Part shown: positions 10,977-38,827 of the stretch, piece after piece
Layout: each line of letters begins with the position of its first letter
Numbering within the stretch: the first letter of the stretch is position 1
From: Alentia gelatinosa
Taxonomy: Eukaryota; Annelida; Polychaeta; Phyllodocida; Polynoidae
Reading direction: 5' to 3'
Length of the DNA: 64,000 nt
Assembly (NCBI GenBank): GCA_950022655.1
Contig: OX465589.1
Coordinates: 31,101,970-31,165,969 of the forward strand
The notes under the pieces: generated by a model
Told to the model about the DNA's origin: nothing
Databases searched by the model: none
What the model saw: the letters and a program-made list of their open reading frames with translations, nothing else
Translations under genes and position numbers: made by a program

Positions 10977-11329
10977 GACAAGTTCACAGTTAAGGGTTCA
11001 TTCCTCCCTTGTCACCGAGCTCACCACGAGACCGACATTTAAGGAGTTCTCTCGTCTTCCCACAACACTAAGCTCACACTTAGACCGACGTGTGCTCCGA
11101 TGTCACGTGTCTGCGCAATAATATGTGCTCCGGCCTGCTGACCTCCACACATGGCCTTGACCTCATCTCCCATCTAGACGTCATTTCCTCTCACGTGACC
11201 GTCTCGAGATTTCCCCGGGTTGATTGTCAACGCGCGCACACGGTCACATGGTTACGTGTGCCGGCAGTGGTGGTGTAAATGGTGGCTTGGGGCAGTATGG
11301 AGGTGTTACTGTGGAGGTATACTATGGGG
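10977..11329. other. Unassigned sequence left of the minisatellite
   Basis: Contains CACGTG-type words near 11103 and 11192 and some CpG, but no gene. It grades into G-rich sequence from about 11270. Confidence 0.35.
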
Positions 11330-15190: not shown

Positions 15191-15924
15191 TGGGGGACGT
15201 ATGTAGGTGAGGGTGAGGGTAGTTGGGGTGGTTATGATGGGAGGGTCGAGGGAGAGGGAGGAAAGTGGGGACAATCTGGGGATGAGGGTGGTGGTAGTTA
15301 TGGTCGGGGGAGACGGAGGGCTGTGGTGGGATTATTACCAATCGACTCGCCTATTCTCCCGGCATCCCTCGGGTGCGGACGTCACTTGATCTGCCTTTCC
15401 TCCAAGAGTGCATCATTAGTTTTTTTTGCTCTACTTCGCAGGGCTGAGAAAACAAGAGATACGGCGGAGAGCGCGGGGGTTTGGGGAGATGGTGCTGTGG
15501 ATTGTGTGAGAAAGGGACAGTGATGGGAAAGTTGGGAGGAGTGAGGGCAGTGTGTTGTCAGGGTGAGGGCAGAGTGTGGACGTTGTGTGGGGCAGGATGA
15601 GGGCACTGTGTGGGTAGGCTATACGGCAGAGTAAGGGGAGTGAGTGAATAAGGCGAGCACAGGATGAGCGCAGGGTGTGGGTAGGGCACAGTTTGGGCAT
15701 ATTGTGGGTATGGTGTTTACAGGGAATGGACAGGCTGATGGAGGAATGAGGGGTTAGGGTAGGGTAGGGTTAGGGCCGAGTGAATACAGGGGAAGGGTAT
15801 GGTGAGGGTAGAGTCATAGCATGGGCAGGCTGAGGGCAGGCGGAGGGCAGTGTGAGGGCAGGCTGAGGGCAGTGTGAGGGCAGAGTGAGGGCGAAACGAG
15901 GGGAAGGGTAAGGGCAAGGTGAAG
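15191..15924 (+). other. G-rich junction between the two minisatellites
   Basis: Degenerate GAGGGCAG/GGTGAGGG sequence with a short unique island at 15340-15480 (oligo-T, TTCGCAGGGCTGAG). A small telomere-like run, GGGTTAGGGTAGGGTAGGGT, lies near 15751-15775. No gene seen. Confidence 0.5.
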
Positions 15925-17290
15925 GTAGGGTGAGTGAAGGGTGTAGGCCAGGTTGTGTGCAGGGTGAGGGCAGGGTGAGGAGTGAGGGCAGGGTGAGTGA
16001 AGGATGTAGGCCAGGTTGTGTGCAGGGTGAGGGCAGGGTGAGGAGTGAGGGCAGGGTGAGTGAAGGGTGTAGGCCAGGTTGTGTGCAGGATGAGGGCAGG
16101 GTGAGGAGTGAGGGCAGGTTGAGGGTAGGGTGTAGGCCAGGTTGTGTGCAGGGTGAGAGCAGGGTGAGGAGTGAGGGCAGGGTGAGAGTACGGTGTAGGC
16201 CAGGTTGTGTGCAGGGTGAGGGCAGGGTGAGGAGTGAGGGCAGGTTGAGAGAAGGGTGTAGGCCAGGTTGTGTGCAGGGTGAGGGCAGGGTGAGGAGTGA
16301 GGGCAGGTTGAGGGTAGGGTGTAGGCCAGGTTGTGTGCAGGGTGAGGGCAGGGTGAGGAGTGAGGGCAGGGTGAGAGTACGGTGTAGGCCAGGTTGTGTG
16401 CAGGGTGAGGGCAGGGTGAGGAGTGAGGGCAGGTTGTGAGAAGGGTGTAGGCCAGGTTGTGTGCAGGGTGAGGGCAGGGTGAGGAGTGAGGGCAGGTTGA
16501 GAGAAGGGTGTAGGCCAGGTTGTGTGCAGGATGAGGGCAGGGTGAGGAGTGAGGGCAGGTTGAGGGTAGGGTGTAGGCCAGGTTGTGTGCAGGGTGAGGG
16601 CAGGGTGAGGAGTGAGGGCAGGGTGAGAGTACGGTGTAGGCCAGGTTGTGTGCAGGGTGAGGGCAGGGTGAGGAGTGAGGGCAGGTTGAGAGAAGGGTGT
16701 AGGCCAGGTTGTGTGCAGGGTGAGGGCAGGGTGAGGAGTGAGGGCAGGGTGAGTGAAGGATGTAGGCCAGGTTGTGTGCAGGGTGAGAGCAGGGTGAAGA
16801 GTGAGGGCAGGGTGAGTGAAGGGTGTAGGCCAGGTTGTGTGCAGGGTGAGGGCAGGGTGAGGAGTGAGGGCAGGTTGAGGGTAGGGTGTAGGCCAGGTTG
16901 TGTGCAGGATGAGGGCAGGGTGAGGAGTGAGGGCAGGTTGAGGGTAGGGTGTAGGCCAGATTGTGTGCAGGGTGAGGGCAGGGTGAGGAGTGAGGGCAGG
17001 TTGAGGGTAGGGTGTAGGCCAGGTTGTGTGCAGGGTGAGGGCAGGGTGAGGAGTGAGGGCAGGTTGAGGGTAGGGTGTAGGCCAGGTTGTGTGCAGGGTG
17101 AGAGCAGGATGAAGAGTGAGGGCAGGTTGAGGGTAGGGTGTAGGCCAGGTTGTGTGCAGGGTGAGGGCAGAGTGAGGAGTGAGGGCAGGTTGAGGGTAGG
17201 GTGTAGGCCAGATTGTGTGCAGGGTGAGGGCAGGGTGAGGAGTGAGGGCAGGTTGAGAGTACGGTGTAGGTCAGGGTATGGATCAGGGTG
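15925..17290 (+). repeat. 63-bp G-rich minisatellite
   Basis: About 21 tandem copies of a 63-bp unit (AGGGTGTAGGCCAGGTTGTG, TGCAGGGTGAGGGCAGGG, TGAGGAGTGAGGGCAGGTTG and so on). Both strands stay open: plus reads 21-residue units around EGCRPGCVQGEGRVRSEGR, minus reads PSLLTLPSPCTQPGLHP for up to 520 codons. Variants are short alternations (GGTTGAGGGTA / GGTTGAGAGAA / GGGTGAGTGAA) shuffled between units, as in unequal exchange. Not considered coding. Degenerate copies trail to about 17400. Confidence 0.9.
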
Positions 17291-17399
17291 AGTGATTGGT
17301 GTATGCAGGGTGAGGGCAGGGGATGAGGGCAAAGTGTGGAGCAGGGTATGGCCAGAGTGAGGTTAGGATGTGGAGCAGAGTAAGGACAGAGCTCTCAGT

Positions 17400-18754: not shown

Positions 18755-19150
18755 AAGGGGAAAAAAGAGAATGGTGGTATACCTCCAGTCAGACTAGTTT
18801 ATGAGTTTAATGAAACTGGCTTCAGACATTGCTTGATTTTAAGTCTTTGATTCCTGGACCTGTCTGAGGAAGGGTACTATTGTAAAACTGGATGAGTTTT
18901 AATCTTGGCGAACGTATGCCACGAACGGAGTTGCACAGTGATTTCAGGAGGAAAGGTCTTGGGAAATTTATAGCTAAAACTCATGGAATAGTATGCAGCG
19001 GCCAAGACTAAAACGAATTAGGTTTCAATTGTATTCTACCAGTCTTGACGATAATTGTAAAAATAATTACTGAGAACATTTTGGCATGCCTGCATTTCCT
19101 CTTTTTTTTGTCTATTTGTTGATTGACCCTGTCCCATATATAAAACAGAC

Positions 19151-19589
19151 AGTAGTATACATAGCTGTATAGACCACAGAATCAATTGTTTAAAATCAGT
19201 CATGCGTGGTGCTCCGCAGATTGTTCTTTCGTTTGTTTATTGCCCAATCTATTGTCTTTTGGTCGAGGTTGTTTGTATTATGAGCATACCGTGCCGGGAA
19301 GTCTGCGCCGGGTCACCTTAAGGGATTATCTCGGGTATTGTTCGCGTTCAGCGGAGCGTGGTGCTCCGCAGGGGCAAACATTGTGCTCCGCAGGGGTAAA
19401 CACGGCCGAGCACACATTTCGGGGCGGCTCGAGCTGCGGGGTAAACACGTCTCGGAGGGGTGCGGTGTTTGCCGTCCGTAATTAGTTTAACTAGAAAGCC
19501 TCTGTGTATGTATGTATGTATGTATGTATGATCAACAAGGTGTTTAACTTATGCGCGCCCCTCCTGTAGGTGAAGTACGGAACTAGATT
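19151..19589 (+). repeat. Left terminal inverted repeat (439 bp)
   Basis: Matches the reverse complement of 38383-38821 with 2 mismatches (near 19551 and 19557). It contains GC-rich repeats of GCTCCGCAG, a (TATG)n run at about 19507-19530, and a 99-codon frame starting at 19186 that also exists at the other end only because the ends are copies. Outer terminus AGTAGTATACATAGCTG. Confidence 0.93.
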
Positions 19590-19974
19590 GATAACACTAA
19601 GTCTATGGAATATAAGTATTATATATATATGTATATATGTATATGTACATATGTATATGTATATATGTATATATGTATATGTATATAGTATATATGTATA
19701 TATATATGTATATATGGTGCATATTTATATATGTATGTATGTATATAACATGTATTAGACATAATTAGAGTATAAGTATGTATATGACACGTATTAGATA
19801 TAATTAGAGTAATATATACTGATATTGATATAGATAATGTATAAGATATAAGATAAACATTATATGTGTATTACATATATATATAAATAATATAATAATA
19901 AAACCTAACAGAACAGTTAAGTTAATAGTTAAGTATTAATACTTTATTACTATATATATAATATATATCCCTCC

Positions 19975-20110
19975 GTAATTAGTTTAACTAGAAAGCCTCT
20001 GTGTATGTATGTATGATTAACATGGTGTTTAACTTGTGCGCCCCTCTCCTGTAGGTGAGGTATGGAACTAAATTGATAACACTAAGTCTATGGAATATAA
20101 GTATATCAGG
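19975..20110 (+). repeat. Direct subterminal copy of the inner TIR edge
   Basis: Repeats 19475-19620 in direct orientation with moderate divergence: CCGTAATTAGTTTAACTAGA, the (TATG)n run, CTCCTGTAGGTGA, then AACACTAAGTCTATGGAAT just inside the TIR. The copies are separated by TATA/TATG microsatellite DNA. This suggests the left end was extended by an internal duplication. Confidence 0.75.
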
Positions 20111-20559
20111 ATAAATGCGAAGAGGAGACTGAGTCTCATGACTATCCTTCTGTGTATGGGAGGTGACTGGTGCGCAGTACCTGTACCGGCGCACCTGTCC
20201 CATACCGAACCCCACCTGGTGAGGTGTGGAGGTATCAATTTAGGGTAGACCCAAGCGACCTCTGTAATTAATACATCAAATAACCCACATTATTTGTATA
20301 CATATGTATATATGTATATAAATGTATATATGTATATATTATGCATATTTATATATGTATGTATGTATGTATGTATAGAACACATATTAGACATACTTAG
20401 AGTAATATATATTGATATTGATATAGATAATGTATTAAGATATAAGATTAATAGTTATATCTGTATTAGATATATATATATATAAATATAATAATAATAA
20501 TTTATAAAGACCTAACAGAACGCATCTAGTTAAGTATTGATACTTTATTACTATACATG

Positions 20560-21235
20560 TACATACTGAATCACAAGTGTGGTATGGTATGGTATGGTAC
20601 AGAATGACAACATTATAAATATGATAATATAATATATAATGTCATATGATATGGTATAGTATGGCATGATCAAACTACAAAACTATTCTATTTTTTAGAG
20701 TGTACACATACACATACACACGGTTTGAATGTAAGGATTTATTTACAACCTCTAAGTTTAACTATCCTATACTATACTATAGGGTAACATCACAAACTAA
20801 TCAGAAATCATTCCCAGTCTTTTAGACATGCTATGGTAGGTTAAGGTAAAGGTAATAACAATGAACCATTCATATAAATCAATAGTATTCATTTAGCTAA
20901 GCTAAGCTAAGCTAAGTTAAGATAAACCAAGTAAACTATAGTAAATTAAGTTAAATAACTGCACCATGTTCGGTCATCCTCCTGAATACCTATCTGTATG
21001 GTTCTACGAGAACTACTATGTATGAAGCTAAAAAGCTGAGCTAAGCTAAGCTAAGTGTGACACGGGATCATGTCTTAAGAAACTGTTTTACTTAACAAAA
21101 ACTATGGTAAAACTAGTTAATGGTATATACTATATATGAAATATACCATTAGTCAGCACCACCTGTTTGAATACCAGTTTGTATGGTCCAGTGTGGAACT
21201 AAAGCTAAAGCTAAAGCTAAAGCTCAGACAAAGTC
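20560..21235 (+). repeat. Cluster of pentamer and hexamer simple repeats
   Basis: Short runs of GGTAT (20577-20600), AGCTA (20897-20920 and 21035-21055) and AAAGCT (21198-21222) in AT-rich DNA between the left end and the LRR gene. On the minus strand this is 3' of the LRR gene stop codon, and an AATAAA-type signal lies at 20738-20743. No other function seen. Confidence 0.6.
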
Positions 21236-21268
21236 ATAACTGAATCACTATTCACATTGTCCGTTGTA

Positions 21269-23083
21269 TCACTGGTCTGAATCACTATCTTCGTATCCGT
21301 GTTCCATGTGTGATACTTTATCAGGAGGTGTCAAACCTGTGTGTACTCCATCACAGTGTCTTTTGAAACCACTATACTTTACAACACCTTTCACCACTCC
21401 GACGTTATGTGGTTTCTCAACCGTTGTAGATGACTCGCTAGGTATAAGTGGTTGTGTGGGGGGTGATGGTGATGGTGGTGGAATTAGTGAGTCGAGTTCT
21501 ATTAGCTGTGGTGACATCTGTGAAGAGTTAGGTGGGCGTGACGAGGTTGAAGGTCTTGCATAAGGTTTATCATTCTTCCTTTTGTGGGAGCGGGGTACAG
21601 GACCAGGACCAGGACCAGTATCAGGACCGCACAGTTTTGAAGGTATCATTCCTGGCGACGTCTTGCACTCGGTACTGTATCGAGAATATGATATCATAGC
21701 TATTATATCGATATACATTACATAATTAATACACATACAATAATTAATAATAATATAGATAATGATAATGATAATTACTTATCATACATACATTACATAC
21801 ATACATAGTAATACATAGGTGCTATTTAATGTGATATCATAACAATACATATTAATATAATGTATATAGATAATCATCTGATAGTTGTATACAAGAATAC
21901 ATGATATACAGAGATATATTGATGGTTATAGTATGATAATAGTATCATATCAATAGACACTTACAAAGAATCATCTACATGATGTAATAACAATATTAAT
22001 AGTATGATAATTATAATAACCTTACCTCAAATCTATAGGTTCGGTACACCGATCATTTTCCTCTTCATTTCCCGTGGAGGTATCTTTTTCAGGTAACTGT
22101 ACCGTGAGTTCGGTATCTTCTATACGGAAGGACTCACATGGTTCTGCTGGAGGCACTACATGTTTTACACGCATTGTTGAGGTTCCACGGTCATGATCAA
22201 ATCCTGATATATCATCAACATTGTCGGACTCGATATCCAATCCACTGTTGTTTGATGATCCAGGTGTATTGACATTATCCGTAGATGTATTGTCAGAAGC
22301 ACATTTTCCACATACACGGTCACAACATTTAAGTAATATTCCTTTCCGGGCAAGATGAATTAATAAGCTTATGAGAATGACGAATACTACACCTACTCCT
22401 CCGGCACCGGTCGCGCTGACCACGACAACCATCATTCGACCGGATCTGTTAACCACTTTATCAATACCCTTCACGTTAGAATCGCCCTCAACGGTGTTTG
22501 GTTTAACAGTTTTATCCTTATTACCGATAGTGTTATCCCTGACTTTAACTGTATTTTCATGAACCACGACTTCAACACCGCCTAGAACCTTTTCGGTAGA
22601 TGTATTGTCATCCATGAGATCTTCGATGTCCATGTTAGTGTCTAATTGCATATGTGTTTCAAGTTCATCGTTCGACGAAGTTATCCTCTTACATTGGTCA
22701 GTGTCTATCACGCTTCTTGGTAGACTTGAACACGAATCAGCTATGGGATTCCTTCTGAGGTCTATTCTGGTGAATCTATCCGTTGGGAAATCACCTATAG
22801 TCCCGATATTGTTGCCGCGAAGGTCAAGTACAGGATACCCGGTGGATTTTCGGTGATGGACATCGGGCATGCTGTATAATCCAATGTTGGTGCATGAAAT
22901 TACTCCACGTGATGGGTAACAGACACATCTTTTACCAGGTCCGCATTCCAGTAAGGCCTCAATTTGCATGAGCAATATAGCAAAGACGGGTAGTATAAAG
23001 AATGGCCTCATGATGGCTATGAAGATGACTGACTTGATCCTGTCGATGTCCTTAGTATTCTGAGTCAATAAGATTAATGACAT
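21269..23083 (-). CDS. Two-exon gene: short LRR single-pass membrane protein
   Basis: Exon 1 runs 23083 to 22026 and exon 2 from 21674 to the TGA at 21271-21269. The 351-bp intron has donor TTTGAG/GTAAGG and acceptor CGATACAG/TACCGAG; the junction codon is AGT and the frame is kept (about 487 codons from the first ATG, 463 from the preferred ATG at 23011). From the preferred start there is a signal peptide (MRPFFILPVFAILLM), an LRRNT-like Cys cluster (CGPGKRCVCYPSRGVISC), one or two leucine-rich repeats (LDLRGNNIGTIGDFP, IDLRRNP), a short Cys-bearing C-cap, an acidic stalk, a membrane segment (VVVVSATGAGGVGVVFVILI region), a juxtamembrane CCDRVCGKC, and a Ser/Pro-rich tail completed by exon 2 (GPDTGPGPGPVP, PPPSPSPP). 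Likely a cell-surface recognition or adhesion protein. It lies inside the giant transposon, so it looks like captured or resident cargo. An uninterrupted reading of exon 1 would stop at TAA inside the donor. Confidence 0.65.
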
Positions 23084-24009
23084 CTTCTTATACTAATCAA
23101 AGAGGAAAGGGGTGTCACTAAACCCGGTGTCAGCCCGGTGTCAGTGAGGCGGTAGCGATACCGGAGAGGGTGACACTATCCAATGACATCTTGATAAGAT
23201 CACCTTTCAACCGACACATGTGTATCCGACCGCTCGCGGTAGCTGCCTGCAATACACACTCATTCATTTGTAGCAGTAGATAGTCAATGATTATCACTGA
23301 TCTCTAAATGTGGTAATGATATGGGTATTGACACTGACATTAACACCGACAACGATGTCAATATTTAACATGCCTCTTGAACATGTATTTAAATTATTCC
23401 TCAATAGAAAGTTAAATATTCAATTCAAACTACTCACGAATTATATTTCATTATTTCATGATTTAGATTTTTAACTATCCAGTTATCCCCTACTCATTAT
23501 TTCAGATGTAACCTTAACATAGTCAAGATCGCATTGCCTTATTGTAGACATTACCTGATAAGGTATACACTCTAATACCAATTTTGATTAATTAGGTTTA
23601 GTTATTCAGTCTTAAAAGGACACTTTACATAAAGTTACAGCCCCTTTTAATGTATAGCTGAGATGTGAGACACCTACATATACAGGCTACCTACACAGCT
23701 ACAAAACCTTGAGTAGGTGACATGTAAACAGTGACGCATTCTGATGACATTGATACAACTCATAGAGGTGTATGGTAATTTTACCCTCTGCCAGGGGAAA
23801 TGCGTCATTTTTTTCCGGGGAGACGTGTTGTACTAGTATACAGTCAATAGGATTTTTTTTACCATTATCATTATTACACGGGTAAAAATTACTCACCATT
23901 GTGGATGTACTGGGAAAAATTACCAATTCTCAAGGGTGTTTATCCGATTACTATAATCCCTTTTTAATCGGTATTAGATTATTACAACACACTACAGTCG
24001 ATTAAATCC

Positions 24010-24285
24010 ATGCCTCAACCTGTTGATTCTTTACCGCACAACAAGGTGGATGTTTGGTTTATATACGGGGTATTACACTGTCTATTCATCACATCGCTCT
24101 ATGGGATATCCTTGCTGTTAGACTACCTGCTGATTTCAATCCTACCATGGGAAACCTTACCATCACCATCGCAGATTACCGAATGGGATTTTCTACACCG
24201 TAGATTGATTGAGCATCAATTACGTGAGGTCACGTTATTGGCATATTCTATCTACCATCATCGACGTGAGAAAACCCAACACTAA
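24010..24285 (+). CDS. Small putative membrane protein (91 aa)
   Basis: ATG at 24010 to TAA at 24283-24285 in the first copy of the tandem duplication. The product has a central hydrophobic stretch (VLHCLFITSLYGISLLLDYL) that could span a membrane once or twice, then a charged tail with HHRREKTQH. Not recognised. The second copy is cut by a TGA. No homology or splice evidence is available, so coding status is open. It lies upstream of and opposite to the LRR gene. Confidence 0.3.
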   Translation: MPQPVDSLPHNKVDVWFIYGVLHCLFITSLYGISLLLDYLLISILPWETLPSPSQITEWDFLHRRLIEHQLREVTLLAYSIYHHRREKTQH

Positions 24286-25097
24286 AGGTATGTATCATTG
24301 ATTGCAACCTGTATCCTACAGCTCGCGGTAGCTGCCTGCAATACACACTCATTCATTTGTAGCAGTAGATAGTCAATGATTATCACTGATCTCTAAATGT
24401 GGTAATGATATGGGTATTGACACTGACATTAACACCGACAACGATGTCAATATTTAACATGCCTCTTGAACATGTATTTAAATTATTCCTCAATAGAAAG
24501 TTAAATATTCAATTCAAACTACTCACGAATTATATTTCATTATTTCATGATTTAGATTTTTAACTATTCAGTTATCCCCTACTCATTATTTCAGATGTAA
24601 CCTTAACATAGTCAAGATTGCATTGCCTTATTGTAGACATGACCTGATAAGGTATACACTCTAATACCAATTTTGATTAATTAGGTTTAGTTATTCAGTC
24701 TTAAAAGGACACTTTACATAAAGGTACAACCCCTTTTAATGTATAGCTGAGATGTGAGACACCTGCATATACAGGCTACCTACACAGCTACAAAACCTCG
24801 AGTAGGTGACATGTAAACAGTGACGCATTCTGATGACATTGATACAACTCATAGAGGTGTATGGTAATTTTACCCTCTGCCAGGGGAAATGCGTCATTTT
24901 TTCCGGGGAGACGTGTTGTACTAGTATACAGTCAATAGGATTTTTTTACCATTATCATTATTACACGGGTAAAAATTACTCACCATTGTGGATGTACTGG
25001 GAAAAAATTACCAATTCTCAAGGGTGTTTATCCGATTACTATAATCCCTTTTTAATCGGTATTAGATTATTACAACACACTACAGTCGATTAAATCC

Positions 25098-25238
25098 ATG
25101 CCTCAACCTGTTGATTCTTTACTGCACAACAAGGTGGATGTTTGGTTTATATACGGGGTATTACACTGTCTATTCATCACATTGCTCTATGGGATATCCT
25201 TGCTGTTAGACTACCTGCTGATTTCAATCCTACCATGA
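25098..25238 (+). pseudogene. Truncated duplicate of the 91-aa ORF
   Basis: The duplicate ORF starts at 25098. Trp codon 47 (TGG in the first copy) is TGA here at 25236-25238, leaving 46 residues. The remaining downstream sequence is still similar to the intact copy. Either it is a pseudogene or neither copy is coding. Confidence 0.45.
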
Positions 25239-25936
25239 GAAACCTTACCATCACCATCACAGATTACCGAATGGGATTCTCCACACCGTAGATTGATTGA
25301 GCGTCAATTTTGTGAGGTCACGTTATTGTCATATTCTATCTACCATCATCGACGTGAGAAAACCCAACACTAAAGGTATGTATCATTGATTGCCACCATT
25401 TGGTATTCAGTTTATCCAATGACTAGCTAATAATGATAATTAGTTAGACAGTTATTAATTAATCATTGTTATATCATTATCATACTACTAATGACAATGA
25501 TTAATTAATATTAATAATTTATTCAGTTTCAACGATGTTATTAATGATAAATAGATGTATAACAAAAGCACTAATACAATATAATATAATATAATATAAT
25601 ATAATTTTTTGATAACTTCACTTTATTGTCACATTTTGAGAATACATGGTGTTTTCTTGTCCTTTGTGGGAAAGTATATATGTGTAACAATGCAGTAGGA
25701 GAAGACCGTTAGTGACACATATCACTGGTTTCAATCGGCTTCCCGATATATACCCTTTAGTCTTCCTTAGGATACAGAACAAGATTTTTTCGATACAGCG
25801 AGACATAGAAAATTGGAGATTCATTAAATAGCGTATATTAAACATTCACTCATATTGGTTACTTGGAATAATCATTTTGTGATTGTTGGTATAGTGGACT
25901 AGTCTCAACAATATGTTTTATAACTGGAAGTAATTC

Positions 25937-25940
25937 CTAC

Positions 25941-25972
<32 letters not shown>

Positions 25973-26506
25973 AGTTCCAAGTAGAATTATTAAATTTGTT
26001 GGATGGAATCCTTCATCATTCTTTTTTGTCAGGCTTTTAAACTCACGAAGGGTTTCCATCTGTCTCATGAGGGGCGACAGATTGCTCCATTTGTGATACA
26101 TAGATACTCCGTACTGGTTGTGTATACCGTACAGTAAGGTTTGTGTACCTTTAGTACGGGTGCTGTTCTCATCCTTGTGGATGGGTGTGGTGACATCGAG
26201 ATTTTCTACATTCTGGGCTCGTTTATAGACATATTTTAACAAGTGAGATTTCCTTCTCTTCTCTAATTTTGGCATATTGTATAATGCATGTGCATAATTT
26301 GTGTGCGTTCTTTGTTCTACACGGAGGATGGATCTCAAACATCTATTTTGCATGACCTGATACCCTGTACAGGGAGGCGGTGAGACTAACATGAGGGTGA
26401 GGACTTTCTTTATAACCCGCTTACTAACAAAATGAAACAAAAGACTTCTTTTAACATAAATAAAAGACATGTTTTTTATCACACAAATTGATTCAGTATT
26501 TCTCAT
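25937..26506 (-). pseudogene. Non-LTR retrotransposon ORF2, C-terminal fragment
   Basis: The minus strand reads MQNRCLRSILRVEQRTHTNY, then LYNMPKLEKRRKSHLLKYVY and MYHKWSNLSPLMRQ...LREFKSL. This matches the conserved tail after the RT domain in CR1/Jockey-like elements (LQNR..R.IL......T....L..L..RR..HLL..yK; W..L...mR....l..FK). The catalytic RT part is missing. The frame runs out into a (CA)n tract at 25942-25970, possibly its original 3' tail. A nested insertion in the giant element. Confidence 0.65.
25942..25970. repeat. (CA)n microsatellite
   Basis: About 14 uninterrupted CA units at the 3' boundary of the non-LTR fragment. Confidence 0.95.
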
Positions 26507-26699
26507 TGTGTTATGAATAATTGTATGATACTTCGCGTGTTATCTATCAGTATATCTTATGTTAAAGTATCTGCTGTCAATCTGATTTTTTTTTCATGAG
26601 ATTTTCTGTTTTGATTCTCGAGATTTTCTGTTTGGATACTATGGCCAATATAGACAAACTTTATGATTTTAAACAAGTACAACTCAACAACTGCCCAAC

Positions 26700-27621
26700 T
26701 CGGTTTGGATCAAGGTTTTATTAGTTTTAAAATTATTTACAATTAATCACAGGTGTAATCACTCCCTCCGCCCGCCACACATCTGAAAAACAACAAACAT
26801 ATACTGAGTCATGAATACAATTCCTCAAAATATTTACATGATAATAGGAAATCATAGCAAGATTGCATGTAAGTGCCACCACCATATACGATAGTATCAC
26901 TGTGTGCTAAATAACATAGTAATCATTGTGAAAAGCCTAAATAACCTAGTAATCATTGTGAATAGCCCTATAGGCGTTTTTTAATATTAGGAATAGCACA
27001 CTAACCATCGCGGTCTATCCATTCCCTGGTCATATCAACGATTTGAATTGAAAAGAAGAAAAGGATAGGGTTCCTATTATTATTATTATTATTTTATGTG
27101 GCACAAAGAAACATCTTTTTTCATGAGCGACCCTAACGAATGTACACAGATATGAAAATCTTTTGCCCCAGATACCTTCCCTTCTTTTAATTTTTCTGGA
27201 ATTTTTTTGACACGTATCCGTGTAGAACGGGTCCTAGGTCCCCCCTAGCGTTAGAATAAAGGTCGTAGCAGTATTGCCCTCTGGTGTAATTTGTACCGTT
27301 TTCTAATTAAACCAAAGAGTGACAAGAATGATGTTTTGGTGAAACTATCATGAGGGTAAGGAATTTCTTAAGGAAGTTTATAACTCACCTTAAAGTTCAT
27401 CAAAGTTGTAAAAAAACGAAAAAAACCCACAAATCACTTCGGAGTTCTTCTGATTGGACGACTGAAAATGGAGAAAAGTTTGTATCAGTTTCAAGTTATA
27501 TAATTTTGGATGTAGTACAATAACTTAGATAATGTAGATAAAAACTTAGATAACGTAAATCAAAAGATTCGGGCCCCACATTACAACTGAAAGTGATAAA
27601 TACAAACAGATTAATGTGTGT

Positions 27622-27679
<58 letters not shown>

Positions 27680-30600
27680 ATTGTAGGGAGACAAACAGTA
27701 CAGCATATCACCTCACACGGGATAAGTAGCATTTGAGCCCATTTCTTATAATAAAACAATGATGTATTGGTAGAAGGGGTGTACTTCTTGGCACGTAGAT
27801 AAAAAAAACTTCTGGCTCCACATTACATTTGAATGTGATAATACAGACAGATTAATGAGAGTCTGTGAAGTTTCTGCAGGTTATTTTTGGTTTTTAAATC
27901 GGGCTCTTTTAAAGAGCCCTGCAAAAAATTATTCTCTGTATTCGATTGAATGGTAAGCTAGTGATTTTGGTGTATAGTGTAAGGTGGTACGCATACATTT
28001 GAAGGGTAGATTCATGTTCTGTGAAAGGTGTCACAAACCCTTGATTTCCATATTTTGTGAGATACACCATGCTTATAATGGAGTGGTATATTAGTTTAAC
28101 TACCCTTCAAATTACAGTTTTTACCATCCTTCATAATTACATTTTTAGTTAACCTAGCGACGTTAGACAAGATTTATTTGCATTCATGGTTTTATATGAG
28201 CAACCTTTTTTGAAGCGACCTCTAGTGGATACACTGGTAACCTGAGCTACATATACGATCGAGTATAACATTATCTTAGATTGGCCGCCACCTCTGTCTA
28301 CACTACGTTCCAGCTAAGAGGTTGGTAACGTTAAACCATGGACGTGTCCACGGATTCTCACTCTCGGACCAAATAAGTATGTTCTACATGGGTTCTAAGA
28401 TCCCAAATACTTGCAAAGAAATATTTATATGACAATAGATTCATAAAAAACTTATATCTGTGGGAATTTATCAAAATACACCTTAAAGAAGATGACAACA
28501 TAGAAAAGATAAGAATCCAGGACTCTTTACAAGCAGAGTAAACAGAGGAACCAGTCACGTGAACCAGTTACAACTGACAGCCCAGAGTAAAAATAGATAT
28601 GAAAAATAGCTAGAGTGACGTTCCTTTACCCGCTACCACGCCAGGTCACGGTCACGGTCAATTCAACGTGACCAGAGCTAACGTAGTATAGCTCGCGTGG
28701 CCAGTGTAACATTATCTTAGCCTGGAATAGTGAGCTAAAGTGAACCCGCTCCAACCACAGATAGCCGGTCACAAAATACTATTTCCCGATATAGGCGCAC
28801 AGTACTTAGACTATGTAGATTCGAGATTATATGTCTCATTCTCCAATCTTATAGATCCATATTTTCATAAACTTAACAACTGTCATCGTAGGGCTTAGCA
28901 TACAAACTCGTTCTCAACAGGCTTGCGAGAATGTTAACTCGTTCTCATTGGGTGATAAAGAGATGAATATTTCCAGCCTAAGATAAATCAGAAACTTATT
29001 TGTGCCTGGTTAGTGTCCTCGTTCGCCATCGAGTTTGGAGTGCACAGTAATATGAAGGAGGTGGTAGCTCGTAAGTGATATACTCAACCTATAACAAGAT
29101 AGAAGTATTGACTTCTACGGGCTATATAATAGGTGCTTTACCTATGTTTTTCCGAAACCTTTTGAGAAACGATCACCACCTATGTACCACCTATGTTTGA
29201 AGCAAAACCTTGGATTGAGTATGTGAGCTTCTGCAAGCGTGGTTCTATTTTTTGGTTTTAGTTAGAGCTTTTAAAAAAGAGCTCTTACAAAAAAAAAAAA
29301 AAATCCTCTCAGTAGGCGACCAAAAGGCAAACAAACCGGTTAGGGAAGCATTAGCACTGATGGCAAAAGTAGATATATAGGAAAAGGTACTAACTCACCT
29401 TAACATTCTTTAAAGTTACGGAACTATCCATCAACTGTTAGAAGAAGTAAATTGGGTTTGTTCATTTATTTTGATAATACTCAAAGGAAAAGTATCCTAT
29501 TTGATATAGTAAACGCATGCCTCTCCCGTGTGTACCGCTGAAACCAATAGAAATTATGGGATAAACGAACTGCTAAGGGGACCTGGGCAATACGGAAATT
29601 TTAAACTTGACCAACCAAGCAAAACCGTTAGAGGGGTCGGGAGTAAGAAGAAGTAAATTTGGTTTGTTCATTTATTTGATAATACTCAAAGGAAAAGTAT
29701 CCTATTTGATATAGTAAATGCATGTCTCTCCCGTGTGTACCGCTGAAACCAATAGAAATTATGGGATAAACGAACTGCTAAGGGGACCTGGGCAATACGG
29801 AAATTTAAAACTTGACCAACCAAGCAAAACCGTTAGAGGGGGCGGGAGTCACAGTGTGAATATGGATGGCTAAGCAGTTTCTTCTACGCAATGACTTTGT
29901 CAAATGGTCTATTAACAAACACAATGGAGCACAACAGTTCCTATATAAGACTGTTACCTACGAGAGGATATCAATGTTCTGGTTGGAAACCAAACTACAG
30001 TACTGTTAATACAGTGATAATTACGGATATTCATTTTAAAAAAATAGGCGTGAGGTGCAGTGACATGTCTGCTACAGCATTTGCTACAACTTCATCGGAG
30101 AGACACTACAATGCAGTGGACGAAAGCCCCCCCGGTTTGTAAATACATAGTCACGTCAAATTACAAAGTTGAGTTTAATGGAAGCCATGTAACTGCTGGA
30201 AAGATAATATTTGACATAACCAAAGCATCCTATTGCTTTTTTTCCGCTCACGAACGGCACATGGTGGAATAGAAACAGGTAGGAGACTATTTCACACCTT
30301 TGGTACACACCAGAGCAAATGCTTCGTACCTATGTTTGTCTAATTAAGCATAATGATTGAAAATCTAAGGTTATCAGAAATAATACCAAGAAATAACTTA
30401 GGTATAATCTATTTTCTCCCGTACCAAATGCTATGCTGGATTTTAGTTCATGCAGACTGACCGCCGTGTGGCACTACCGTCTGCACAGTGTCACATCATA
30501 ATATGGGAGTTGGGTTTCTTTGGTTATAGTTCTTTGATCATACTACACAGAATATTAATAGTTTAAAGTAGTTTTTTTACTCACCGTGGTGCCACAAACA

Positions 30601-31793
30601 CGTCAATGTAGCCATGGTAGCTACCTAAATGTAACATAAACTAAAGGTCAGCATTGAGTTCTATTCATTCGAGTAAAAAATTGTGTTGAAAACAGGGTTT
30701 AATATTCAATCGTTTTTATTTTGTATCAAATATATTGTATGGTTAGGACACACCATAATTACTCGTTCACAGTGATTATACTCGGAATAAGCCCGTTTGG
30801 CGTCTATACAGAAAGGGTTCTCAACCCATTACGCAGTGTGAAGAAGCACACGCCATCTACGGGAAAAGCGGCACACCACTCAAATGGGCGCCCTCTCGTG
30901 TATAGTGCTAACGTAAGCTACAGTAAACTACTTCCGCTGTTGGTACCGCTGCGCAAATACACGGAGGAAATATTATAGCTGTGTCACATACTAGGAATAG
31001 GAAAAGAATGGTTGGTATTGCCCTTGTACAAACTAATTTCGTGGTATCAGATGCATAGGTAATTTTGTTAAATATTGATAATATTGATTGTGTTACATAT
31101 TAAATAAGACGAACTCACCATCATCCCTCTCCTCCAGCCCTACAACGATTTCCACGCGCCTGTGAAAAGAATTGCGGATAAATTTTCACAGATTCACACA
31201 GAGGCATTAGTGCCTTGAATTTCATTTTGAAAATGTAGTTCATAATATGACATGTTAAGTTTGAAATTTGACTTGATTGATGAGGATTTCGAATGGTAGA
31301 GAAATTTCACTACTTTTGGACGATAATAGAGGGATTATAGAAACGGAAGCTTTTGGACAAATAAGCAGAACATCAGTGTGAGAAGGGGTGGTGGGGGGGC
31401 TTCATTTTGAAAAATGTAGTTCATAACCTGACATGTTAAGTTTGACATTTGAGTTATTTGATCAGGTTTTCGGGCAAATCCGATTACAAAACTAATACGA
31501 CATTACGGTATTGATCGACTACACCCGTACCGAGAGTGGGTGCAGGGGAGGATTTCATTGCTATGGCGGGCCGCTTGAATAGGAAGGTGACCAATTCGGG
31601 AAAAGTTAAGTGAGAACTTATTCATTTTATTCGTGTTAATACCATCTAATACTCACCGAAAAGGGATGTTGGCACTCGCCACACGCCTGGCGACCCGCCC
31701 CAGGAAAGACATGATTGCCGGCCATGCCCTCCAGAAAAGGAAAAAACCTCCTGCTGCCAAAGAAAACGCCGCAAAAACACTTCTTGCGTCCAT
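26700..31793 (-). CDS. Candidate multi-exon gene with very small exons (partial model)
   Basis: Three consecutive exons have consensus GT-AG sites and compatible phases. E1 is 31793-31657, opening at an ATG with a hydrophobic start (MDARSVFAAFSLAAGGFFLF), donor TTTTCG/GTGAGT. E2 is 31159-31119 (41 nt, acceptor TTCTTTTCACAG, reads RVEIVVGLEERDD). E3 is 30624-30585 (40 nt, reads SYHGYIDVFVAP, donor CACCACG/GTGAGT). Introns 1 and 2 are both about 495 bp. Other possible exons are 29434-29399 and 27461-27389, which share a TTAAG/GTGAGT donor. A possible last exon starts at 26782 after TTGTTTTTCAG, with AATAAA at 26722-26717. E3 leaves phase 2, which 29434 does not accept, and 27461 hits a TAA, so the middle is unresolved. 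The N-terminus suggests a signal or anchor segment. The product is not recognised. Confidence 0.4.
27614..27678. repeat. (TG)n microsatellite
   Basis: About 32 TG units with one interruption. Flanked by a diverged duplication: CACATTACAACTGAAAGTGA at about 27576 resembles CACATTACATTTGAATGTGA at about 27818. Confidence 0.9.
28377..28898 (+). other. Two short coding-like segments of unknown identity
   Basis: 28377-28541 reads 54 codons rich in Lys/Glu/Ile/Tyr (contains KKYLYDNRFIKNLYLWEFIK), and 28734-28898 reads 54 codons containing IGAQYLDYVDSRLYVSFSNL. Both lie between stop codons and have amino-acid composition typical of real protein rather than AT-rich noise. No start codon, splice pair or family was identified. 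They may be fragments of a decayed gene of the giant element. Confidence 0.2.
29440..29848 (+). repeat. ~206-bp tandem duplication
   Basis: 29442-29646 and 29648-29848 are near-identical direct copies (both contain AAACCAATAGAAATTATGGG and GGGGACCTGGGCAATACGGA). The left copy borders the possible 29434 exon of the minus-strand gene. Confidence 0.9.
29891..30142 (+). CDS. Coding-like block C of a three-copy unknown family
   Basis: ATG 29891 to TAA 30140-30142. Contains KPNYSTVNTVIITDIHF and VRCSDMSA, which align with blocks A (to 32241) and B (32953-33141). It diverges from them after the SDMSA motif and runs into a short Pro-rich end. The aligned region keeps frame across many substitutions. 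The family is not recognised. The neighbouring GAAACAG/GTAGGAG near 30278 could be a splice donor of a continuing exon. Confidence 0.3.
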   Translation: MTLSNGLLTNTMEHNSSYIRLLPTRGYQCSGWKPNYSTVNTVIITDIHFKKIGVRCSDMSATAFATTSSERHYNAVDESPPGL

Positions 31794-31929
31794 TTTGAAA
31801 ACTGCTTGAATGATGAAATCTGGGTCAAAGCCGATAAATCTGGGTCAAAAACAGACCCATTCGTAGTTTATAAAAAAGTCACTAGATAAGAGATGGGTTG
31901 TGCGTACGAGCAGGGGTTGTTATTAACTC

Positions 31930-32241
31930 ACGATTATCATTATTTAACACACTTTTCTGGGAAGGGGAGGAGGGAGCGTCAGTTATCTTCACACGAATTC
32001 CATATATTATGGCGGAAATCCAAAAGACAGTGTGGTTAATACGGTGATAACTTCTGATCTTTCAGCCAGAAGAATACGTGTCAAGTCCAGTGACAAAGCC
32101 ATGTCTGCTAGACTGTCAAGCCACAAAATTAACATTTATATCGTCCTATGGCGTCAACAGTGTAAAATGAAACCAGCACCACATTCCTCTGATCAGCAGC
32201 TGTACGAAGGTGACAGACTTGATACGGCGGAATTAACCTAA
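31930..32241 (+). CDS. Coding-like block A of a three-copy unknown family
   Basis: Open frame ending TAA 32239-32241. Readable motifs are YYGGNPKDSVVNTVITSDLS, RRIRVKSSDKAMSARLSSHK and KMKPAPHSSDQQLYEGDRL. It shares its C-terminal half, including the stop, with block B, and differs by a 12-nt (frame-preserving) indel. A TTTCAG precedes RRIRV at 32065, a possible splice acceptor. Function unknown. Confidence 0.35.
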
Positions 32242-32369
32242 CGATTTGAAAGTAAGTAAGTAAGTAAGATAGGTAAAGCCTCGTAGACTATAAGGTTGAA
32301 TCTATGGGAAGCCGTGTCACTGCTCGAACCAAGGGTGATCGAACTGTTATTGGAAATCAGGTCGCACCG

Positions 32370-35300
32370 GTTTAAACTTTTAGATTAATGATTGATAATA
32401 AATATATTCATATTCTACATACTGTAGTTTTGTATCTATAAGGATATTGTTTGTATCTATGGTTAGCCGAGTTTCGAATTAAATAATTCATGTGAATCGG
32501 ATTAGGCTAATGTGTCACTGCTCAAAACGAAGGGTGGTCGAACTGTCATTGGAAATCAGGTCGTACAGGGTTTAAACTTTAGATTAATGATTGATAATAC
32601 ATATATTCATATTCTACATACTGTAAGGTTTGTATCTATGGGAATATTGTCCAGGTTAGACGAGTTTCGATTTAATAATTCATATTTAACCTTAGGCATT
32701 ATACAGTCAAAATTAATTTATCATGAGGATTTAACTTAAAATATAGGTCTGGAAACATTATTATTATTCGTAAACTACAGATTATCAGGTTTCTCCTTAT
32801 AGGTATTTGTGTATTTAGGAATATGTGGGATTATTTATGGAATTTAGAAATTAAAAGCTATACTATAGGCTTCGTAGGGAGTGGTGCACTGGTAGAGATA
32901 TGATTAGAAAATCATTTAATATGAGATCTATTTTGAAATATCTCACTTTCAGCCGGGAAGGATACGCGTCAAGTCCAGTGACAAAACCATGTCTGCTATG
33001 CTACGAGTCGATTCGACAAGTCACAAAATTGACATTTATATCGTCCTACGGCGTCAACAGTGTAAAATGAAACCAGCATCACATTCCTCTGATCAGCAGC
33101 TGTATGAGGGTGGCAGACTTGAGACGGTGGAATTAACCTAACGATTTGTAAGTAAGATCAGCAAAGCCTCTATAGAGTACTGTCTAGACTATAAGGTTGA
33201 ATCTATGGGAAACCGTTTCACTGCTCAAAACGAAGGGTGGTCGAGCTGTCATTGGAAATCAGGTCGCCCAGGGTTTAAACTTTAGATTAATGATTAATAA
33301 TACATATATTCATATTCTACATACTGCAGGATTGTATCTATGGGAATATTGTCCAGGTTAGACGAGTTTCGATTTAATAATTCATATTTAACCTTAGGCA
33401 TTACACAATCAAAATTAATTTATTATGAGGATTTAACTTAAAATATAGGTCTGGAAACATTATTATTCGTAAACTACAGATTATTAGGTTTCTCCTTATA
33501 GGTATTTGTGTATTTGGGAACATGTGGGATTTATTATTTATGGAATTTAGAAATTAAAAGCTATACTATAGACTTTGTAGGGAGTGGTGCACTGGTAGAG
33601 ATATGATTAGAAAATCATTTAATATGAGATCTATTTTGAAATATCTCACTGGAGACATTAATATTATTAAACTATGGGTTCTTAGCTTTCTTCTCATATA
33701 TATATATAATTTTGTATTTTGGATAATGTGGGAATTAGTTATAGAATTTAGAATTTAGAAAATTAAAAGTACTCAGTGATTAAAATAGCTTGTACTGCCA
33801 TAGCTAGGTTCGAAGACATGTTTTCGAATGGTTTATTTTTGGTTTTGAGCATTGAATCTATGGATGGGGACTGGATTAGGGGGAACTATACTGTATGAGG
33901 TTTGTTTATACGAAATATCATTCACTTTGAACCAGTGTAGGATTTAGAATCGAATTGACAGAAATGCTCATCTATCTTAGGCTTTACTATAGGAAAGGTA
34001 TGGGAGTAGAGTTCAGGTGAGGATAGTATTAGAAAATTGTTTTTAATATTGTTTTACTTCAAATAAATGATAGGAGACAGTAATATTCGTAAATTAGAGA
34101 TACTGAGCTTTCATTTGATATATATCTTGACCATTTCGGAAGAGTTGGGACTTAGATATTGATTTTTTTAACTTAGATTCGAGCAGTGGATAGATTGACT
34201 ATTTCGCCATAGCTGGGTTATAAAACATCTTTTTCAAAAAATTTCTTCCAGGCTTTTAACCATGAAGCTATGAACGGTGAATTGGATTAGAGAGATACTG
34301 AGCTTTCATTTGATATATATCTTGACCATTTCGGACGAGTTGGGACTTAGATATTGATTTTTTGAACTTAGATTCGAGCAGTGAATAGATTGACTATTTC
34401 GCCATAGCTGGGTTATAAAACATCTTTTTCAAAAAATTTCTTTCAGGCTTTTAACCATGAAGCTATGAACGGTGAATTGGATTAGGTTAATCTACACACA
34501 CTCTAGGGTTTCTAATCTAGAGATTAGAATCAAAAGCAAATATAGTTTGTGTCTATAGACTTAATTCACGGTTGAATCATATATGCAGGAATTTGTCAGG
34601 TTGATATACATAGATCAGTGTCTAGCTGGTACTCGAGGTAGTGGGAGGTAGGGGGGATTTTATCGTCGATATAATAATCTATTTAACCGCTTCTGATCGA
34701 AATATTTCACAAAAAATTTGTTCATCGTTTCGCTGTATCGGGACATGCTCTGTGAATAACTCAACTCGTCCATAGGCGCGAGTGGATTAGGACTTTGTTT
34801 TATTTTTCTCTGTGTTCTACTTGAATCGATGATTGGCGACTTAGCTTAGAGCAAACTACACTGTCTCAGGTATGATTATACAAGATATGATAGACTTTGA
34901 AACAGGAGAGATTGATAAATTAATTAATTAATTAATGAAAATGGTACTCAACGCTGAACCTTCAACATGGGAGCAGTAGGGGAGATGGGCTCTAGGCAAG
35001 ACACCATTTCGAAAAACATTTTTTACGAGCATTTACTGAGAAAAAACACTGGAGGATGAAATATTCCTAAACTAGGCAGTTTCAGCTTTTTTCTCATATA
35101 TTAATGTGCAATTCAAGCATGAGGGGGGACTGAGATATTGATTTATGAAATTAGATTCGGACGGTACCTATAGGAAACTACTGAAACATTGTGACCTTAC
35201 ATTGCGAAGATCATACAACCGTTTTTATCTGAAAGCAGTCTAAATTGTATTCATTATCGACCTTTCCTGACAAGTGGCGTACAGATATTAGTTCATTTAG

Positions 35301-37740
35301 GTACGTACTAACTTTCCGTATGCGATGGGGTTTGCAACCCAGAGCATATAACATATCTGTATGCTCCGGTATGTAGATATACGCTGTCCATATGTTTCTA
35401 TGGACACTAATCTATGCATCAAGTGGATAATAAATAAAGGAATAAATATGCTATAAATATAAACATCAAATGGTATTATAGGGAGACATAGTTAGTGTGG
35501 CTGAATGGAATCTATTTTCTGGCTGAAATATTCACCTCGTTCGAAGTGTATATGTGATGTCATATTGTTTTCATTCATTTAATTTCTCATGATATTGATT
35601 ATTTTCTTATCCTTTATCTAACCCCCTAGTATTTTGTCCTATAGGTTTAACATTTGTAACTTGCTATCCATGCCCTCAGTATTCTCCATATATTTATATA
35701 AACACTGATCTTCCTTTTGCTCACAGGTATTGACGAATGGAGGCTGTTCGTCTGCGTAAAGAAAACCAGATCTACAGTGTAGATGAAAAAAAAAACGAGC
35801 GCTTGCCAAATTCACCCACGTAGAGCGAACCAAGCGAGAAAACAGATCCTCTAACAGTTCAAGCACGGTGGTTCAGCATTATATTCTGCTGCTCCTGGGA
35901 CATTATGAAAAAATTTGTTTGAAAAACAATTTATTTATTTATCGTAAAATGTTCCACTATTTTATAGTTAATTATTAAATTTTATCACAAGAGACATTAA
36001 TATTCATAAACTACAGGTTCCAAGCTTTCTTCTGAGATATAATTTGTGTATTTAGGACAAGTCGGTACTTAGATATCGGATTTAGGAGAATAAAAGTACT
36101 CTATCAATAAAATGGCTTATGGTACCATAGCTAGGTTTTAAGACATCATTTTCAAATGTTTTAGTTTAGGCTTTAAGCATTGAATCTATGGACGGGGACT
36201 TGGATTAGGGTAAACTACACTGTCTGAGGTTTGTTTATACGAAATATCATTCAATTTGAACCAGCGGAGAAATTAGAATTGAATTAAAAGAAATGATCAT
36301 CTAAGCTGAGCCTTTACTAAGGGAGCGGTAGGGGGGTTAGGCGTTGGGCCAGGCACGATTTAGAAAATCATTTATTATGAGGATTTAACTTGAATTCTAT
36401 TACTGGAGACATTAACATTCGTAAACTACGGGTCCTTAGCTTTCTCCTCATATATATATTTGTGTGTTTTGGACAATGTGGTATTTAGTTATCGAATTTA
36501 GAATATTAAAAGCTTTACCATAGGCTTGGTAGGGGGGTCACGCACTGGTCGGGATACGATTTAGAAAATCATTTATTATGAGGATTTCACTGGAATTTTA
36601 TCACTGGAGACATACTGGAGACATTAACATTCGTAAACTATGGGTCCTTAGCTTTCTCCTCATATATATATTTGTGTGTTTTGGACAATGTGGTATTTAG
36701 TTATCGAATTTAGAATATTAAAAGCTTTACTATAGGCTTGGTAGGGGAGTCACGCACTGGTCGGAATACGGTTTAGAAAATCATTTATTATGAGGATTTC
36801 ACTGAAATTTTATCACTGGAGACATTAATATTCGTAAACTACAGATTTCTTGTGATATAAATATTGTGTATTTCGGGTGATTTTGGACTTAGATATTGGT
36901 TTTTGAAAATTAGATTCGAGCAGTGACTATTTTGACTTATTTAACCATAGCTGGGTCATAAGACTTCTTTTTCAAAATGGTTTCTTTGAGGCTTTCAGCA
37001 TTGAATCTATGGACTGGGCCTCATATTAGGGTAAACTACACTGTCTGAGGTTTCCTTATATGAAATATCATTCAATTTGAACCAACGGAGAAATTAGAAT
37101 TGAATTAAAAGAAATGATCATCTAAGCTGAGCCTTTACTATGGGAGCTGTAGGGGAGTTAGGCGCTGGGCCAGGCACGATTTAGAGATCATTTATTATGA
37201 GGATTTAACTTGGATTCGTAAACTACGGGTCCTTAGCTTTATCCTAATATATATTTTGTGTATTTCGGACAATGTGGGATTTAGTTATCGAATTTAGAAT
37301 ATTAAAGCTTTACTATAGAATTGGTAGGGGGTGTCAGTCACTGGTCGAGATACAATTTAGAAAATCATTTATTATGAGGATTTCACTGGAATTTTATCAC
37401 TGGAGACAAAATATTCGTAAACTACAGATTCTCAGCTTTCTTGTGATATAAATTTGTGTATTTCGAATGATTTGGGATTAGATATTGATTTTTTGAAAAT
37501 TAGATTCGAGCAGTGACTATTTTGGCTTATTTAATCATAGCTGGGTTATAAGTCATCTTTTTCAAAATGGTTTCTTTGAGGCTTTCAGCATTGAATCTTT
37601 GGACGGGGACTTAAATTAGGGTAAACTAAACTGTCTGAAGTTTCAGTATATGAAATATCATTCAATTTGAACCAGCGGAGAAATTAGATTGAATTAAAAG
37701 AAATGGTCATATGACTACAGATTTACTATGGAAAAGGTTT
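32370..37740 (+). repeat. Long array of diverged repeat modules in the giant element
   Basis: About 5 kb built from recurring modules in direct orientation. Typical words are ACTGGAGACATTAATATTCG, TAAACTACAGGTTC, TTAGCTTTCTCCTCATATAT, TTTTGGACAATGTGG, AGAAAATCATTTATTATGAG, GAATCTATGGACGGGGACTT and GGGTAAACTACACTGTCTGA. Examples are 32528-32940 versus 33238-33655, 34140-34290 versus 34310-34480, 36180-36600 versus 37000-37390, and 36600-36720 versus 36400-36500. Spacing varies (about 170 to 700 bp), so the array grew by several duplications. Apart from block B, no coding frame is kept. Confidence 0.8.
32953..33141 (+). CDS. Coding-like block B of a three-copy unknown family
   Basis: Follows CTCACTTTCAG (32943-32952). 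Reads GRIRVKSSDKTMSAMLRVDS, then HKIDIYIVLRRQQCKMKPAS and a tail ending at TAA 33139-33141. Compared with block A it has an extra four residues and several replacements, but no frameshift. It is part of a larger duplication in which the following ~500 bp are repeated as well. Confidence 0.35.
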   Translation, partial: PGRIRVKSSDKTMSAMLRVDSTSHKIDIYIVLRRQQCKMKPASHSSDQQLYEGGRLETVELT

Positions 37741-38382
37741 TAACAAATAGTAACGAATTGTAAATACGTTGTCAGAAATGAAAAGCCTGCCTTTCTACCT
37801 ATATGTACCAAATTTCAGGCTGATATTCCAATTAGATAAAGGTAAAAGCAGGGTGGTCCCTTAAGCGGGGTGGTCCCTTAAGCGGGGTGTCCTGGAAGAG
37901 GGGTTTTACTGTACTACATGAGTTTCAATATGTACTCCCAGTTCTGAACGTATTCCCATAGACTGAGCATTATCAATTTAGTTCCAACCTCTACCTATAG
38001 GGGGCAGCACAATATGATTTCTAATATTTTTTAATGGAAGTTATAACAAATTCTTGATGAAATATTAATTTAAAAGCAGTTTTAGTTATAAAATCTTAAT
38101 AGATAATTGCAAAATATCAAGACCTTCATTTGTTAATTTTTGCAAGTGTTATTGAAGCATTCTTGACGAAAATGATGTGTAAACACCATTTCATAGTAAT
38201 ATCTTATTAATATATATATGATCCCTTCAGATTCATATCTGAGCACTCTGTGCTAGTTGTCATCTCCTACACTGAGCCATCATACATATCTGAAGGCAGC
38301 GAATCGCTTGCTTATTGTATGTATGTACAGGCTCAGAGGTGTCAACTTGTCCTCAGGGGTGCAGCCCGACCCGTGGCGGCCG

Positions 38383-38821
38383 AATCTAGTTCCGTACTTC
38401 ACCTACAGGAGGGGCACGCATATGTTAAACACCTTGTTGATCATACATACATACATACATACATACACAGAGGCTTTCTAGTTAAACTAATTACGGACGG
38501 CAAACACCGCACCCCTCCGAGACGTGTTTACCCCGCAGCTCGAGCCGCCCCGAAATGTGTGCTCGGCCGTGTTTACCCCTGCGGAGCACAATGTTTGCCC
38601 CTGCGGAGCACCACGCTCCGCTGAACGCGAACAATACCCGAGATAATCCCTTAAGGTGACCCGGCGCAGACTTCCCGGCACGGTATGCTCATAATACAAA
38701 CAACCTCGACCAAAAGACAATAGATTGGGCAATAAACAAACGAAAGAACAATCTGCGGAGCACCACGCATGACTGATTTTAAACAATTGATTCTGTGGTC
38801 TATACAGCTATGTATACTACT
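38383..38821 (-). repeat. Right terminal inverted repeat (439 bp)
   Basis: Inverted copy of 19151-19589. It ends ...CTATGTATACTACT at 38821, directly followed by the ACAGAC duplication. The 99-codon frame at 38487-38786 on the minus strand is identical to that of the left end and is not considered a gene. Confidence 0.93.
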
Positions 38822-38827
38822 ACAGAC

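Follow-up and report, generated by a model that had tools for sequence, protein, structure and literature searches.

A 19,671-bp transposon with a G+C content of 36.4% lies within the stretch of Alentia gelatinosa DNA analyzed here (the window, 64,000 nucleotides, C11:31101970-31165969, in a genome assembly of 1.234 Gb in 101 contigs). The element has moved recently, and we read it, with a probability of about 0.88, as a non-autonomous but full-length-sized satellite of one Polinton/Maverick lineage that is apparently mobilized in trans by that lineage. According to this reading, the satellite keeps the lineage's cis-acting terminal inverted repeats (TIRs) and one accessory gene for a membrane protein, and the rest of it is duplicated and captured host DNA. 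The ends, the target duplications, the many near-identical copies, and a gene content with no detectable core genes were all observed directly, and the ends and one gene are shared with a Polinton of the same genome that carries a polymerase and an ATPase.

Ends of the element and its copies in the genome

The original prediction described a young transposon with long inverted ends, a 6-bp target duplication, and the hallmarks of a Maverick/Polinton, and the boundaries were found exactly as claimed. The left TIR (19151..19589, plus strand) starts with AGTAGT, the right TIR (38383..38821, minus strand) terminates with ACTACT, and alignment of 19151-19589 with 38383-38821 as its reverse complement shows 2 mismatches over the 439 bp, at zero-based positions 398 and 405. 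The unstranded 6-bp duplication ACAGAC directly abuts both TIRs (19145..19150 and 38822..38827). In the sections of PMC8097293 that were consulted, intact vertebrate Mavericks are described as 12.7-24.6 kb long and constrained in size, with TIRs of 402 ± 276 bp (range 46-1,447 bp), 6-bp duplications, end motifs (AGT)2 and (AG)3, and intronless core genes, AGTAGT...ACTACT being the commonest end motif. The TIRs of 435-439 bp and the element length of 19.67 kb fall inside these ranges, both termini read AGTAGT and thus carry one of the Maverick motif pairs, (AGT)2//(ACT)2 or (AG)3//(CT)3, and a 6-bp duplication is present in 11 of 11 satellites for which both flanks were read. An incomplete further copy of the TIR's inner portion (positions 322-439 of the repeat, ∼82% identity) was detected at 19969..20074 on the plus strand in the TIR search of the genome.

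That search, which returned 65 rows from 40 scored of 284 candidates, revealed many inverted pairs standing ∼19.65 kb apart, so the inverted pair in the window is not a chance occurrence. Nine further full copies were read, in 20 pieces. Together with the window copy they are spread over nine contigs, and all ten have a perfect 6-bp duplication, each of a different sequence, as the original prediction had anticipated (six of the ten were read from 3.4-kb end loci). An eleventh, slightly longer relative (C1:12766934-12786798) has GATTCA on either side. When the first 20 bases of the TIR were sought with up to 2 mismatches, 137 + 148 occurrences were found versus 7 + 3 for the reversed pattern. 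The pairing and linkage counts given below use the first 100 of these occurrences listed, all of which are exact. Inverted pairing accounts for 76 of the 100 (38 pairs) and the other 24 stand alone, which disposes of the concern that such ends might always occur singly. There are 14 occurrences of the exact right-hand junction, none of them with a mismatch, and no occurrence of its reversed control. Two copies, C15:30884767 and C9:3134394, are located inside tandem arrays, where the flanks plus one copy of the duplication continue the array. The predicted empty site was therefore recovered, although from array repeats and not from an allele.

Sequence comparison of the copies is consistent with recent movement. 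Long matches of the nine copies to the window element have 99.5-99.9% identity, and alignments of at least 3 kb contain 13-41 substitutions per 19.67 kb (0.07-0.21%) relative to the window copy. The copies differ in structure as well. The window copy has two units of a 1,089-bp tandem duplication (23221..25397, unstranded) and copy C10:22156887 has a third, while copy C7:25886997 (L044/L045) carries a nested ∼9.4-kb element of the long terminal repeat (LTR) type, with two identical 391-bp LTRs, at element position 16128. Both TIRs of the window copy carry a 4-bp insertion, as do both TIRs of C9:20380069, and the remaining eight copies lack it at either end. At two inner positions of the right TIR, 4 of the 12 right TIRs read (those of C9:20380069, C9:3134394, L009, and L017) carry the left-hand bases. 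From these patterns, the two TIRs of one copy seem to evolve together. This would be expected if the DNA is linear and each end can serve as the template for the other, and chromosomal gene conversion would give the same result.

Related end-bearing sequences were also found. L056 and L057 represent a sister satellite subfamily, with a right TIR 98.5-99.6% identical to that of the window element over 266 bp, followed inward by ∼60 bp without a match and then by sequence 96-97% identical to the interior of the window element. Two end pairs on C1 (28066780-28078242 and 174426369-174437598) are ∼11.2-11.5 kb in length, contain neither a scored polymerase nor a listed membrane gene, and are possibly another non-autonomous family.

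Gene content and the Polintons that share the ends

The interior of the element is made of simple repeats, duplications, and a frame-broken relic, and a 329-amino-acid open reading frame (ORF; 22025..23011, minus strand) is the sole open frame longer than 200 amino acids. Polinton polymerase, integrase, protease, ATPase, and capsid domains were not found by Pfam in ten ORFs and in six frames from 19590 on (six-frame threshold E ≤ 0.1). The six-frame scans returned only a relic of the host gene NKAP and a sub-threshold match to DUF5376 (E 0.012); the ten-ORF scan gave sub-threshold matches only, the best being ZrgA (E 0.003) on a His/Thr repeat. The element thus encodes none of the proteins that define a Maverick proper (protein-primed polymerase, integrase, ATPase, protease, and capsid) at a detectable level, and we therefore file it as a non-autonomous derivative. 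The Maverick/Polinton identity put forward in the original prediction holds for the ends, the duplication, and the size, and gives way, for the core genes, to that of a dependent element. A 200-amino-acid frame at 25940-26539 presumably resembles the end of a long interspersed nuclear element.

The NKAP relic (35727..35845, plus strand) is a degraded exon with a broken frame and serves as a marker of the satellite family. Its Pfam match is below the cut-off (E 0.00026), and it was confirmed by the alignment of 21 residues with a PDB chain of NF-kappa-B-activating protein (E 2e-5). By eye, an intron-like 3' splice site precedes it and the frame breaks in an A run, so the element took up host DNA that has since decayed. 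A genome search with the relic, in which 40 of 58 candidates were scored, yielded 40 rows, all of which are within 25 kb of a membrane gene of the group most similar to that of the window (group A, below); no NKAP row is found near 8 of the 49 rows in group A. Forty loci with both features indicate a satellite family of at least 40 copies. In the 261-bp NKAP piece, which contains a slippery A run, the net length has changed in 16 of 40 rows.

Candidates for the missing machinery are abundant in the same genome. A genome profile search with PF03175 gave 156 matches with 70 of 216 candidates scored, revealing a wealth of Polinton-type protein-primed polymerases, many of them in open frames of 1,400-1,500 amino acids; 14 control genomes gave none. 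Five listed end pairs bracket a scored polymerase, and 12 of 27 listed polymerase loci (C1 to C4:67 Mb) have an exact end within 35 kb in the correct orientation. In all 12 end-linked polymerases the first matched segment stops at model position 163-166, and of the other 15 polymerases 14 stop at 190-209 and one lacks the first segment (all judged by eye). Since this split coincides with the end linkage, there are at least two groups of Polintons, one of which uses the end studied here. The other polymerase class (first segment 7-200/209, many frames of ∼1,500 amino acids) had 0 of 15 loci linked to the TIR.

The clearest helper-type Polinton is a 26.4-kb element at C2:90061322-90087700, with polymerase rows from 90076975 and a perfect AGAACT/AGAACT duplication. 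Its right TIR has 1 mismatch in 321 bp to that of the window element, and its left TIR has 3 mismatches in 266 bp before diverging, so that the window element has its TIR in common with a core-gene-bearing element of the same genome. A 1.2-kb piece near the right end (L058) contains a 298-amino-acid ORF whose best Pfam match, Pox_A32, is below the cut-off (E 0.0051). The ORF has 81 relatives at E ≤ 0.001, and since several are labelled Pox_A32 or PF02456 (which we take to be adenovirus IVa2), the ORF is identified as a packaging-type ATPase. More distant versions of the window TIR, ∼83-86% alike over ∼340 bp, are present at both ends of C4:65206199 and at the left end of C2:115776803.

The 329-amino-acid ORF provides a second connection to these Polintons. 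The encoded protein has a signal-peptide-like start, a Cys-rich ectodomain resembling leucine-rich repeats (LRR), one transmembrane-like helix, and an acidic tail. The term LRR-like reflects a motif reading (Pfam LRR_6, E 0.18), and the structure that AlphaFold predicted from the single sequence was of unusably low quality (mean predicted local distance difference test score 44.8). A second exon encoding a proline/serine-rich tail is predicted at 21269..21674 (minus strand), with splice sites placed by eye, CAG before 21674, and a stop at 21269-21271. Searched from residue 2, the ORF had no protein-database relative at E ≤ 0.01 and no PDB sequence match up to E 10; PHROGs gave no match at E ≤ 0.1.

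A protein search of the genome with this gene returned 128 rows, with 122 of 192 candidates scored, which include three identity groups and 41 rows outside them. Group A (≥94% identity) has 49 rows, 46 without a stop and three with one, and the ORF spans 987 bp in all 49. Group B (82-87%) has 16 rows and group C (62-72%) has 22. None of the 49 group A rows has a scored polymerase within 30 kb; in group B 6 of 16 do, and in group C 7 of 22. One group B gene, C2:90063924-90064913, is located within the helper-type Polinton and agrees with the gene of the window element in position and orientation, both being on the minus strand and ∼2.6-3.9 kb from the left end. Each of the five listed end pairs around a scored polymerase also contains the gene (group B or C). 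Of the 37 end pairs, another 19, with lengths of 17.4-22.7 kb that fall inside the published span for Mavericks, contain a group A gene but lack a scored polymerase; among the remaining 13, a gene of group B or C is present in five, and eight have neither polymerase nor gene. Given its presence in the polymerase-bearing pairs, the gene is an accessory gene common to Polintons of this lineage and kept by the satellite. For the same reason, we dropped the idea that it is a captured host gene.

Between the window and helper-type copies, the gene has one in-frame codon indel and no stop, with a nonsynonymous rate (dN) of 0.068 and a synonymous rate (dS) of 0.134 by NG86, and a dN/dS of ∼0.5 (NG86) to 0.67 (YN00). 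There are 44 amino acid changes as compared to 52.7 ± 3.9 in 300 random placements (lowest 42), and 239 of the 300 placements created a stop. Among the ten satellites read, the ORF has three silent changes, two replacements (the one at 23005 by eye), and one stop change, and one copy has a frame-shifting insertion in the predicted second exon (21457). Strong purifying selection was considered and set aside because the deficit of amino acid changes is moderate. Because these substitution patterns also arose in part along the branch of the Polinton, they make selection on the copy carried by the satellite itself likely, and no more than that.

Elsewhere in the window, long coding-like minisatellite arrays occupy 5386-5883 and 11200-17390, with repeat-built open frames of up to ∼530 amino acids, and open frames at 363-1529 resemble, by eye, products of DIRS-type retrotransposons. 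Rfam gave one tRNA-like match at 49415-49493 (31.3 bits versus a cut-off of 29).

Alternative explanations and a proposed mechanism

Several points weigh against the satellite reading. The duplication of the polymerase-bearing element at C4:65206199 agrees at only 5 of 6 positions (CTCGAG/ATCGAG, by eye), and the helper-type Polinton, at 26.4 kb, exceeds the published vertebrate range. No integrase was seen in the ∼4.7 kb read, flanks included, of three polymerase-bearing elements, 3.0 kb of which come from C2:90061322-90087700. Pfam is weak for some Polinton proteins, as illustrated by the ATPase of the helper-type element, whose best match (E 0.005) is below the cut-off. Finally, with 70 of 216 polymerase candidates scored, the absence of a polymerase from unread satellites is only as secure as this incomplete scoring; in the window copy, the absence is supported by the frame scan.

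The weakness of Pfam for Polinton proteins is also what favors the best surviving alternative, that the element is self-sufficient, as a Polinton or another large transposon with enzyme genes that went unrecognized because they are rich in introns or highly diverged. One gene of the element does seem to have two exons. However, with the membrane gene as the only open frame of more than 200 amino acids, profile scans that yield little beyond the NKAP relic, an interior of repeats, duplications, and broken coding sequence, and core genes that are intronless in intact vertebrate Mavericks (consulted sections of PMC8097293), we consider this explanation improbable.

A captured host exon between long TIRs could instead point to a cut-and-paste transposon of the Pack-MULE kind, from Mutator or another superfamily, that is Maverick-like only at its ends. 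This is very improbable, as the duplications are 6 bp in 11 of 11 cases and not the 8-11 bp of Mutator. The Pack-MULEs of one large survey, as reported in the consulted part of a review of giant transposons (PMC6431247), do not exceed 7 kb. The ends, moreover, are common, nearly base for base, to a polymerase-bearing Polinton, which largely refutes this possibility. Segmental duplication or assembly error as the source of the pair and its copies, a notion to which only two left ends 4.5 kb apart with the same outer flank (C7:9748526, L015, and C7:9753053, L014) lend support, is the least credible of all, given ten copies on nine contigs with differing perfect duplications and two array insertions whose removal restores the periodicity. 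The doubled left ends on C7 are themselves a local duplication or an assembly artefact.

If the element is a satellite of the Polinton lineage, its movement can be outlined as follows. Proteins of Polintons with the same TIR would recognize the satellite TIRs, a protein-primed polymerase supplied in trans would copy linear satellite DNA from the AGTAGT ends, and a Polinton integrase, also supplied in trans and presumed to be encoded by the helper, would insert the product with a 6-bp stagger. The action of the lineage's proteins on the satellite, its mode of replication, and any packaging are what we infer. The size of the element and the kept membrane gene suggest a further, doubtful possibility, by analogy with virophages and phage satellites, in which a Maverick would have the element as its satellite virus. 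Filler DNA would then hold the length in the Maverick range for packaging in Maverick capsids, and the membrane gene might aid the spread of the packaged DNA, or might guard the host cell against the helper or exploit it.

Relation to known elements and significance

The element resembles Mavericks/Polintons in its AGTAGT/ACTACT ends, 6-bp duplication, TIRs of several hundred base pairs, and size within the 12.7-24.6 kb given in the consulted text, and it shares its TIR and one accessory gene with Polintons of its own genome. It is unlike them in lacking detectable polymerase, ATPase, integrase, protease, and capsid and in consisting mostly of non-coding repeats and captured host DNA. With Pack-MULEs and other non-autonomous gene-capturing DNA transposons it has in common a host exon relic between long TIRs and an apparent need for outside enzymes. 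It differs from Pack-MULEs in being nearly three times the 7-kb maximum of those surveyed, as far as the consulted part of the review goes, and in its Polinton ends and 6-bp duplication.

Virus satellites, such as phage-inducible chromosomal islands (PICIs) and virophages, carry their own replication, interference, or capsid genes. As in those systems, a dependent element has kept the ends and dropped the core genes; unlike them, it has a single membrane-protein gene left and no known particle. PICI particles package 15-30 kb (PMC6431247, consulted part), and Maverick particles have so far been unobserved (PMC8097293, consulted sections). Among the papers listed in searches on non-autonomous Polintons/Mavericks, or on an LRR membrane gene in them, none describes such a satellite in its title or in the opening of its abstract that was displayed. 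The novelty seems to lie in a nearly gene-free element of full size, the single retained gene, and the tie to one helper lineage. As some non-autonomous Polintons are already entered in repeat databases, the kind itself is not entirely new.

A near-identical family that lacks detectable core genes and has the full Maverick length, both ends, and an open membrane gene is what particle packaging would predict, and the element provides a concrete sequence to seek in particles. The membrane gene, for which no relative was found outside this genome, is a lead to a Maverick role at cell surfaces. More broadly, the family suggests that ∼20 kb of DNA, most of it foreign to Polintons, can be spread by their machinery, well beyond the 7 kb of the Pack-MULEs surveyed, as the consulted part of that review reports them.

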